Part shown: positions 5,309 to 60,406 of the stretch, in pieces
How positions within the stretch are numbered: position 1 is the first letter of the stretch
How the letters are laid out: each line of letters opens with the position of its first letter
Assembly: GCF_003977755.1 (NCBI RefSeq)
Contig: NZ_RQWN01000001.1
Coordinates: forward strand, 388,995 to 452,994
Direction of reading: 5' to 3'
Source: Haloterrigena salifodinae
Lineage (GTDB): Archaea > Halobacteriota > Halobacteria > Halobacteriales > Natrialbaceae
DNA length: 64,000 nt
Translations under genes and position numbers: made by a program
Notes under the pieces: generated by a model
The model's database searches: none
Told to the model about the DNA's origin: nothing
The model's input: only the letters and a program-made list of their open reading frames with translations

Positions 5309-6229
5309 TCAGAGGATTCGGTTTCCGAATGCGCTCGCGGTGAGTTCGGCCGCGATGGTTGCGGTCTCGTTGCCCTCGTCCAGAATCGGATTGACCTCGA
5401 CGACGTCCATCGACCGGACGATCTCCTCGGCCGCGTGGCGCTCGGAGACGGTCTCGAGTGCGGCGTGAGCTTCCCGGTAGGTGACGCCGCCGCGGACCGG
5501 CGTGCCAACCCCCGGCGCGGTCTTGGGATCGACCCAGTCTAAGTCGAGGCTGACGTGGACGCCGTCGGTGCTGTCGGTCGCGACGTCGAGGGCGTCTTCG
5601 ACGACGGTGGTCATCCCCCGCTCGTCGATGTCGGCCATCGTGTACGCTGTCATCTCACTGTCGCGGACCAGTTCGCGCTCGCGCTCGTCGATGCTCCGGA
5701 GGCCGACGTAGGCGATCGATTCCTCGCGGACGCGCGGCGCGCGGGCCCACGACAGGTCGCCGAAGGCGCCCCGGCCCAGCGTCGCGGCCAGCGGCATCCC
5801 GTGGACGTTGCCGCTGGGCGACGTCGCGGGCGTGTTGAGGTCCGCGTGGGCGTCGAACCAGATCGCGCCGAGGTCCGCCTCGCGGGCCGAACCGCGCATC
5901 GAACCGATGGCGACCGAGTGGTCCCCGCCCAGCACGAGCGGAAACTCGCCGTCCGCCAACGTTTCCGCGACTCGTTCTTCCAGCCGCGTACAGACGCCCT
6001 CGACCTCCCGGAGGAACTTCGCCGTCCCCTCGATCGGCTCATCAGTGTTGGGATCGCGCTCCTCGGCCCGCGGAATCAAGAGGTCGCCATCGTCGACGGC
6101 GGTGACGCCGGCGTCCGAGAGCCGATCGGCCACCTCGGCGTACCTGATCGCCGACGGTCCCATGTCCACGCCGCGGCGATCCGCCCCGTAGTCCATCGGC
6201 GCACCGATGATTCTGACGGTCGTAGCCAT
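5309..6229 (-). CDS. rocF: arginase (ureohydrolase family)
   Basis: The product has 306 residues. The manganese-site motifs of ureohydrolases are present: GGDHS, DAHADLNTP and SLDLDWVDP. The PGVGTPVRGG segment after the third motif, the SGNVHGMPLA segment and NPILDEGNET near the end are arginase-like rather than agmatinase-like. The predicted reaction is hydrolysis of arginine to ornithine and urea, used in haloarchaea for arginine catabolism. An agmatinase or formimidoylglutamase specificity is possible but less likely. It is divergent from the DtxR-family gene, sharing an 85-base upstream region that contains the 6290-6303 palindrome. Confidence 0.8.
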   Translation of the reverse strand: MATTVRIIGAPMDYGADRRGVDMGPSAIRYAEVADRLSDAGVTAVDDGDLLIPRAEERDPNTDEPIEGTAKFLREVEGVCTRLEERVAETLADGEFPLVLGGDHSVAIGSMRGSAREADLGAIWFDAHADLNTPATSPSGNVHGMPLAATLGRGAFGDLSWARAPRVREESIAYVGLRSIDERERELVRDSEMTAYTMADIDERGMTTVVEDALDVATDSTDGVHVSLDLDWVDPKTAPGVGTPVRGGVTYREAHAALETVSERHAAEEIVRSMDVVEVNPILDEGNETATIAAELTASAFGNRIL

Positions 6230-6289
6230 ACTCAGCCTTCGTCGCCCGGCGGTTTGACGGTGGCGATAGAGACGGCGACAGCTTTAGGG

Positions 6290-6303
6290 TTAGACCCGTC
6301 TAA
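6290..6303. promoter_or_regulatory. palindromic DtxR-type operator candidate
   Basis: TTAGACCCGTCTAA is a perfect inverted repeat, six bases on each side of CC. It ends 11 bases before the start of the metal regulator and sits between that gene and arginase. DtxR/IdeR/MntR-family dimers bind AT-edged palindromes like this, and family members usually repress themselves. The position would cover the start site of a leaderless or short-leader mRNA. Confidence 0.6.
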
Positions 6304-6314
6304 ATCCGAGCACC

Positions 6315-6995
6315 ATGATGCTGAGCGACGTGATGGAGGACTACCTCAAGACGATCTACCAGCTCCAGCGCGAGACCGACGACCGGATCAAGACGTCGGC
6401 CATCGCCGACGAGCTGGACGTCACGTCGCCGACGGTCACCAGCATGCTCGACAAACTCGAGGAGCGGGGGCTCGTCGACCGCGAGAAGTACAGGGGCGTC
6501 ACCCTGACCGACGAGGGCGAAACCGTCGCCCTCGAGGTCGTCCGTCACCACCGGCTGCTCGAGGCCTATCTCACCGAACATCTCGACTACGACTGGGCGG
6601 AGGTCCACGAGGAGGCCGACCGGCTCGAGCACCACATCAGCGAGGACTTCGAGGCCCGCGTCGCGGACGTCCTCGGCGAACCGACGGTCGACCCCCACGG
6701 CGCGCCGATCCCCGGCGCCGACCTCGAGCCGCCCGAACGCCCCGATGGCGAATCCGTCACCTCGTTCTCGGCGGGCGACACCGTGATCGTCGAGGAGGTC
6801 GCCGACCGCGACGCCGACGTCCTCTCTTACCTCGCCGAACACGGGGTCAGACCCGGCGTCGAACTCGAGATCGTCGAGGTCGCCCCCTTCGGGATGATTA
6901 CCGCCCGCTCGAGCGACCACGACTCCGACGTCTCTCTGCCCGAGTCCGTCGCCCACCACGTCCGCGTCACCGAGCCGCCGGAACTCGAACAGTAG
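6315..6995 (+). CDS. DtxR-family metal-dependent transcription regulator (SirR/Idr type)
   Basis: The product has 226 residues. The N-terminus (MEDYLKTIYQL, then LDVTSPTVTSMLDKLEERG) is the winged helix of the DtxR family. Residues 60-130 (HHRLLEAYL, HEEADRLEHHIS) form the metal-binding and dimer domain. The end (DTVIVEEVADRDADVLSYL, VAPFGMITAR) is the FeoA/SH3-like domain. Such proteins bind DNA when loaded with Fe2+ or Mn2+ and repress uptake genes. Haloarchaeal relatives regulate iron and manganese genes. The palindrome at 6290-6303 is a likely self-operator, and a ZIP-transporter scrap follows the gene. Confidence 0.88.
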   Translation: MMLSDVMEDYLKTIYQLQRETDDRIKTSAIADELDVTSPTVTSMLDKLEERGLVDREKYRGVTLTDEGETVALEVVRHHRLLEAYLTEHLDYDWAEVHEEADRLEHHISEDFEARVADVLGEPTVDPHGAPIPGADLEPPERPDGESVTSFSAGDTVIVEEVADRDADVLSYLAEHGVRPGVELEIVEVAPFGMITARSSDHDSDVSLPESVAHHVRVTEPPELEQ

Positions 6996-34073: not shown

Positions 34074-34141
34074 CGCTCCGCTGGCGAGATGGACGAAGTC
34101 CGTCGAGGCTCGGAGCGGGAACGCAGTGATCGCTCCGTTGG
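34074..34141. repeat. duplicated tRNA-Glu 5' end with intervening hairpin
   Basis: CGCTCCGCTGG at 34074-34084 matches the tRNA 5' end CGCTCCGTTGG at 34131-34141 in 10 of 11 bases. Between them lie a small hairpin (GGAC, loop GAA, GTCC) and a hairpin with stem CGGAGCG (34111-34117) against CGCTCCG (34131-34137). Its loop, closed by a G-T pair, is GAACGCAGTGA (34119-34129), identical to that at 21779-21789. The 3' arm of this hairpin is the tRNA acceptor strand itself. Confidence 0.65.
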
Positions 34142-34206
34142 TGTAGTCCGGCCAATCATTTCGGCCTTTCGAGCCGATGACCTGGGTTCAAATCCCAGAC
34201 GGAGCA
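34132..34206 (+). tRNA. tRNA-Glu, anticodon TTC
   Basis: The 75 bases fold as a cloverleaf. Acceptor stem GCTCCGT (34132-34138) pairs with ACGGAGC (34199-34205), discriminator A34206. The anticodon stem is TCGGC/GCCGA with loop CTTTCGA, anticodon TTC at 34168-34170. The T-arm is CTGGG-TTCAAAT-CCCAG. No CCA is encoded. Both ends have degenerate second copies in the flanks. Confidence 0.96.
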
Positions 34207-34313
34207 CTTCTTCGCGAACAATATCGTGAGCGAAGACTGCTATCTGGCGATTTGAAGTAGAAAAACGCGAGTGTTAGCGAGCGTTTCGCGTAGTTCACAT
34301 CCTAGATGGAGCA
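34186..34313. repeat. tRNA-Glu 3'-end duplication with hairpin between
   Basis: The last 21 bases of the tRNA (34186-34206) recur at 34293-34313 with 18 of 21 identical. Between them are, in order, a hairpin 34209-34236 (stem TCTTCGC, loop GAACAATATCGTGA), an inverted T-arm scrap CTGGCGATTTGAA (34244-34256) and a hairpin with arms AAACGC and GCGTTT (about 34263-34286). The same order occurs after tRNA-Val. Confidence 0.7.
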
Positions 34314-60220: not shown

Positions 60221-60295
60221 GGGTTGGTGATCTAGTCCGGTTATGATACCTCCTTCACACGGAGGAAGTCGGCAGTTCAAATCTGCCCCAACCCA
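60221..60295 (+). tRNA. tRNA-Val, anticodon CAC
   Basis: The 75 bases fold as a cloverleaf. Acceptor stem GGGTTGG (60221-60227) pairs with CCAACCC (60288-60294), discriminator A60295. Anticodon stem CCTCC/GGAGG, loop TTCACAC, anticodon CAC at 60256-60258. T-arm GGCAG-TTCAAAT-CTGCC. No CCA is encoded. Confidence 0.96.
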
Positions 60296-60406
60296 CTACT
60301 TCTGTCGCGAACAACCTCGTGAGCGACAGAATCGTGACGATGGGCAGATTTGAATCAGGGAGTGAAGCGAAGCGGAACGACCGTGGTTCAAATCTGCCAC
60401 AACCCA
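60275..60406. repeat. tRNA-Val 3'-end duplication with hairpin between
   Basis: The last 21 bases of the tRNA (60275-60295) recur at 60386-60406 with 20 of 21 identical. Between them stand a 9 bp hairpin 60300-60331 (stem TTCTGTCGC, loop GAACAACCTCGTGA) and an inverted T-arm scrap GGCAGATTTGAA (60343-60354), which could pair with TTCAAATCTGCC of the second copy (60387-60398). The order equals that behind tRNA-Glu. Confidence 0.75.

Follow-up and report, generated by a model that had tools for sequence, protein, structure and literature searches.

Introduction

Integron cassettes and integrase-less attC arrays are built of short units that end in a folded, imperfect inverted repeat, and integron arrays seem to be extended beside a fixed anchor. 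REP/REPIN and MITE-type elements are small, non-coding and hairpin-forming, occur in many copies and are presumably moved in trans; in the folded attP of the CTX-phage type, the stem of a single-strand hairpin repeats part of the sequence targeted in the chromosome. Archaeal att sites typically lie in tRNA genes (reviewed in PMC8371274), and the Haloquadratum tRNA-His island, with its 43-nt repeat, is an example of an integrative element at such a site (PMC3119063).

The structure described here, a unit behind tRNA genes of haloarchaea that is represented twice in a 64,000-nucleotide stretch of the Haloterrigena salifodinae genome (the window), has features of several of these systems. Like tRNA-site integrative elements, it targets the 3' part of a tRNA gene, restores the tRNA and has a displaced 3' fragment at its far end, and there are precise empty sites in relatives, at tRNA-Glu(TTC) in genome G002, tRNA-Glu(CTC) in G005 and further loci. 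Unlike those elements, the units are gene-less and mostly about 100-170 bp long, repeat exactly G53 to N73, possess two covarying hairpins, and, stacked in places, accompany about half or more of the tRNAs, with nearly every isotype represented. They fold as an imperfect palindrome with compensatory changes, as attC sites do, and the extra and better-preserved units adjoin the tRNA anchor, which is how an array growing at its anchor might look, although loss may account for the pattern at individual loci. Integron cassettes differ in that the anchor of our units is a tRNA T-loop, their arms match the host tRNA and they contain no ORF; nor does an integrase stand beside them, as judged with a generic Phage_integrase model that is not specific to IntI. 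REP/REPIN and MITE-type elements are matched in small size, absence of coding, hairpin formation and copy number, but not in the strict anchoring to tRNA genes with a tRNA-specific direct repeat, and the units do not show the pattern of terminal inverted repeats plus a short target duplication. With the CTX-phage attP there is a resemblance only, as neither a virus nor an Xer/dif site is involved in the units. Inserts at tRNA sites that leave a displaced 3' fragment are known in general. In the open-access literature, to which our search was confined, we found no description of a gene-less form with two hairpins that is matched to the isotype, stacked, and present at about half or more of tRNAs.

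Results

Structure of the units

All units follow one order: a U-rich trailer, hairpin 1, an inverted T-loop, an inner segment containing hairpin 2, and a copy of the unit's own tRNA from G53 to N73. In the window, the tRNA-Glu(TTC) gene (34132-34207, forward strand like all features given here; ARAGORN, and Rfam RF00005 at 59.4 bits) has N73 at 34206 and positions 53-73 at 34186-34206. Its trailer, CTTCTT (34207-34212), overlaps the start of the hairpin 1 stem, and trailers are T-rich in most units. Hairpin 1 (34209-34236), supported by covariation over 53 units, has a 7-bp stem (TCTTCGC/GCGAAGA), tandem G.A/A.G pairs, 2 bp and a 6-nt loop; the loop region, GAACAATATCGTGA, is identical to that of the tRNA-Val unit at 12 of 14 positions. 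There follow an inverted T-loop/T-stem arm, CTGGCGATTTGAA (34244-34256), which is the reverse complement of tRNA positions 54-65 with one insertion, and an inner segment (34257-34292) assigned by sequence and fold to the type 'GTAGA..CGCGTA', with hairpin 2 arms AAACGC (34263-34268) and GCGTTT (34281-34286); this is a type other than TCAGGGAG..GACCGTG, and is partly decayed. The unit closes with the displaced copy of positions 53-73, GTTCACATCCTAGATGGAGCA (34293-34313), which matches at 18 of 21 positions at an offset of 107 and has its empty site in G002 (L327). The second unit follows tRNA-Val(CAC) (60221-60296, ARAGORN) and comprises hairpin 1 (60302-60329), the inverted arm GGGCAGATTTGAA (60342-60354), an inner segment of type a, TCAGGGAG-hairpin 2-GACCGTG (60355-60385), a pattern present in at least 120 loci, and a displaced copy of positions 53-73 (60386-60406) that matches at 20 of 21 positions at an offset of 111.

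An initial annotation of this DNA had reported both 3'-end copies and their offsets, and the Glu hairpin with its fully paired stem and Val-like loop, and we reproduced all of these in the sequence. It had also described an inverted scrap of the T-arm, which is present in the Glu unit, while across the family the inverted piece is mainly the T-loop, spanning tRNA positions 54 to 62. Its reading of the two cases, with coincidence left open, was incomplete, since hairpin 2, the sharp borders at G53 and N73, stacking, empty sites and the class-wide spread were all missed.

When 27 tRNAs of the host genome are aligned on T54, the direct copy shows some 80-100% identity per position from 53 to 73, and its borders are sharp, with background at 52 and at 74 apart from the common T-rich trailer. 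Neighbouring T54 positions are mostly 97-169 bp apart, and in outlying cases the distance ranges between 85 and 296 bp, so that a unit of the host genome occupies about 85-300 bp; it is gene-less and encodes no integrase. Inner segments fall into several sequence types, of which TCAGGGAG-hairpin 2-GACCGTG is the most frequent among loci largely chosen by that very motif. The units of tRNA-Glu TTC and CTC have hairpin 1 in common. In Rfam 15 only the tRNA itself matches, and the unit has no family match above the gathering score. A downstream pseudo-tRNA-Leu at three tRNA-Leu(CAA) loci (L161, L169 and L176) contains in its variable arm a palindromic insert of ~80 bp that resembles another inner-segment type.

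Occurrence in the host genome and in haloarchaea

The last 21 bases of a tRNA recur downstream of it with at least 16 of 21 matches in 27 of 43 tRNAs of the host genome, and the match counts are bimodal, at 16-21 for these 27 and 11-13 for the remainder. As 200 shuffles per tRNA reached a maximum of only 16, and the real counts fall into two groups, we rejected a chance self-match. With all copies counted at a threshold of 15 of 21 and the intron-containing tRNA-Trp included, 30 of 46 tRNAs carry a unit. The window itself holds only two tRNAs, and its Glu and Val cases might for that reason be put down to two coincidences, but the 30 positive host tRNAs and the class-wide family make this explanation negligible; many other tRNAs of the host and of its relatives likewise have self-copies in their downstream flanks. 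The arrangement recurs with each tRNA bearing a copy of its own end and is not a single duplicated locus; on these points the initial annotation was right. Its further statement that simple common descent is excluded holds for the arms and the 3' end, which are tRNA-specific, but not for the hairpin loop and TCAGGGAG..GACCGTG, which are homologous between isotypes.

A search of the 4.96 Mb genome with the hairpin-loop pattern CGCGAACAANNTCGTGAGCG at up to 3 mismatches returned 34 forward and 23 reverse sites, against 2 and 4 in the reversed control, and the best sites lie directly 3' of tRNA genes. An apparent orphan hairpin at C1:89319 was discarded as such, being the intron-containing tRNA-Trp with two stacked units. 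Outside the unit count are other hairpins downstream of tRNA-Leu CAA and GAG in G000 (L068 and L080), each with a short acceptor-end copy (CCTCGCA and CCCACGCA), that are possibly another unit type.

In public genome contigs, the motif TTTGAATCAGGGAG-N(5,35)-GACCGTGGTTCAAAT occurs at 120 loci or more; all records listed are haloarchaeal, except one MAG titled only Euryarchaeota. Nearly all of these loci lie directly behind a tRNA of the same strand, of many isotypes, and the rest are mainly truncated contigs, second units or displaced units. In a sample of 145 class members the exact motif was present in 44 genomes of 27 genera, and its reversed control gave zero; the hairpin-1 pattern was not found in any sampled member of the phylum outside class Halobacteria. 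Free of motif selection, two genomes from other haloarchaeal families have copies of their own 3' end at 12 of 30 and 14 of 28 tRNAs, nearly all with unit anatomy, while a non-halophile of the phylum has none at 33 tRNAs, whole-tRNA repeats being set aside. Over the haloarchaea examined, about half to two thirds of tRNA genes are followed by a unit, and nearly every isotype is represented.

Covariation and strandedness of the hairpins

Both hairpins show strong compensatory change. In hairpin 1, 96% of cells are paired against 77% in shuffles (53 distinct units), with 107 double-change cells against 32; in hairpin 2 the figures are 97.9% against 81% (29 distinct units), with 18 double changes against 3, and these shuffle counts are not probabilities because related sequences gathered by motif were compared, although pair types are many. 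Sliding controls collapse for both hairpins. The inner pair of the hairpin 1 loop switches from A-T to G-C in step, across the tandem G.A pairs, which are conserved on the tRNA-sense strand. Two curated hairpin alignments have more G.T than A.C mismatches (15:5 and 8:0, together 23 against 5), while a loose stem scan has no G.T excess (44 against 53). The conserved G.A pairs, together with the preponderance of G.T in the curated sets, indicate that it is the tRNA-sense strand that folds, either as RNA or as single-stranded DNA. Decay of the displaced copy is uncorrelated with the strength of hairpin 1, and the persistence of hairpin 1 as that copy decays could reflect a resident function.

Turnover between relatives

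In G002, of the same genus, tRNA-Glu(TTC) ends in ...GGAGCA and runs straight into the flank that lies beyond the displaced copy in the window; this is a precise empty site, and there is another at tRNA-Glu(CTC) of G005. Junction matching between G000 and G002 shows whole-unit differences at roughly 11 tRNA loci, where the upstream flanks have hardly changed, and in most such pairwise comparisons gain and loss are indistinguishable. At Arg-tct, Tyr and Leu-tag the unit of G000 sits in G002 behind one extra, tRNA-proximal unit, and the older unit is near-identical in both species (at Arg-tct, identical by eye); at Arg-gcg, G002 has one extra unit between the tRNA and the sequence that forms the proximal flank in G000. 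Because the G000 unit or flank lies behind the additional G002 unit, the difference adjoins the tRNA. Among 17 stacked arrays the tRNA-proximal copy is the better preserved in 15, the worse in one and tied in one, which fits displacement of the earlier 3' end at each entry. Near-identical tandem arrays are seen at tRNA-Lys (3 x 108 bp, Halorientalis), tRNA-Leu (3 x 146 bp) and tRNA-Gly (2 x 100 bp), and at the tRNA-Met copies and Pro-tgg units are held in common and reordered. Because close relatives differ in the presence, absence and number of units, these look like tiny cassettes for which tRNA genes are docking sites.

Two further loci have composite structures. A tRNA-Leu(TAG) array (L134, 1600-2100) consists of composite 146-bp repeats with an extra partial copy of the T-loop. 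G003 has two copies of tRNA-Glu(TTC) at a distance of about 1.1 kb (L330/L332), the first copy having the empty-site flank and the second being a damaged 71-nt tRNA followed by a unit.

Integrases and viruses near units

At L101 of Haloterrigena salina, tRNA-Val is separated from the window's orthologous Val unit by a 3.1-kb element, which occupies precisely the tRNA-proximal position in which extra units are seen. Read by eye, the element contains an integrase-like frame that is broken and an ATPase-like frame of 501 residues, and the displaced fragment again starts near G53. At L151 (near 5574-6690), a complete 371-residue tyrosine integrase frame, with Phage_int_SAM_1 above the cut-off and Phage_integrase just below it (E 8e-6), adjoins a displaced tRNA-Arg 3' fragment, and a unit follows. 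As both elements sit there, integrases do use the tRNA neighbourhood of the units. Neither element has unit-like ends or, before its displaced end, a unit-like inner segment, and the five matches to the generic Pfam Phage_integrase model in the host genome all lie away from units.

We rejected a viral attP origin, since scans of free viral contigs found no unit and yielded chance coding matches and one provirus contig with a host tRNA. This provirus contig, which has tail-like genes, carries at its edge (L207, 13744-14013) a tRNA-Glu with one intact and one decayed unit.

Discussion

We hold with moderate confidence that the units are gene-less, tRNA-anchored mobile cassettes that enter at the T-loop, bringing with them a substitute 3' end for the tRNA. 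The observations behind this reading are the anatomy of the units, their borders, covariation and distribution, their precise presence or absence in relatives, and stacking on the tRNA-proximal side. Such a cassette would be made up of the substitute end (positions 54-73), a U-rich trailer of its own, hairpin 1, the inverted T-loop and hairpin 2, and would enter at the G53|T54 junction in the T-loop of the tRNA to which its 3' end corresponds. As with full-size integrative elements, the old 3' end would be pushed downstream, free to decay, and the tRNA would stay whole because the cassette supplies its end. Repeated entry would stack cassettes, the newest adjoining the tRNA, and recombination between the 21-bp direct repeats would remove them. 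Insertion would be carried out by a site-specific recombinase acting in trans, probably a tyrosine integrase, and the hairpins would serve insertion and not a host function. Against mobility of this kind, no linked recombinase gene accompanies the units, the free viral contigs scanned contain none of them, and a hairpin 1 that does not weaken as the copy decays could mean a resident function. Moreover, each unit matches its own tRNA though inner motifs are common between isotypes, and simple integration does not explain the switch from one tRNA to another. This adaptation to a new tRNA is the largest gap in every model, and a templated copying step is one possible answer. It is a feature of a bolder and, in our judgement, unlikely variant, an integron-like system anchored at haloarchaeal tRNA genes in which a widespread recombinase inserts gene-less, single-strand-folded cassettes at the T-loop, guided by structure and not by sequence, the copying step fits each to its tRNA, and the result is a layered, datable record of insertions at every tRNA.

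The alternatives to mobile cassettes each account for part of the evidence. Units might spread by ordinary homologous recombination between the tRNA loci of different cells, using the tRNA body on one side and the 21-bp copy on the other, with loss and multiplication through the direct repeats and no dedicated recombinase. The common sequence that this requires is demonstrably there, and the predicted spread within an isotype, tRNA-proximal insertion and precise loss are all seen, as are reordered units between tRNA-Met copies and at Pro-tgg and the hairpin 1 common to Glu TTC and CTC. We nevertheless consider it unlikely, as it leaves unexplained how units arose on nearly every isotype, why inner motifs are near-identical across isotypes and genera, and why covariation in the hairpins is so strict. 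A functional 3' trailer, in which a sense RNA with two hairpins affects termination, processing or regulation of the tRNA and absence reflects redundancy, would suit the strict sense-strand placement behind tRNAs, the strong covariation, the curated G.T bias, the conserved G.A pairs and a hairpin 1 that does not decay with age. Yet a third to a half of tRNAs have no unit, the same tRNA varies between close relatives, and stacking and near-identical tandem units would be unexpected; the loose scan has no G.T excess, and G.T over A.C fits single-stranded DNA just as well, so that we regard a trailer function as improbable. Very improbable, finally, is an origin as scars of ordinary integrative elements that have lost their integrase islands. 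Integrase elements do use the tRNAs concerned, at L101 and L151, and repeats of tRNA 3' ends are their classic mark, but scars left by unrelated elements should not agree in length or have in common both covarying hairpins, the inverted T-loop and a conserved inner motif, near-identical tandem arrays are not expected of them, and the displaced ends at L101 and L151 have no unit-like inner segment.

Haloarchaeal tRNA genes, about half or more of those examined, carry a fast-changing element that leaves the tRNA intact and is undescribed in the open-access literature searched. If the units work as RNA, they would represent a new trailer structure on essential genes. If they are mobile, they would be a minimal, gene-less integrative element and a ready test bed for how recombinases choose tRNA genes, and the decay of stacked copies would rank the insertions at each locus by relative age.
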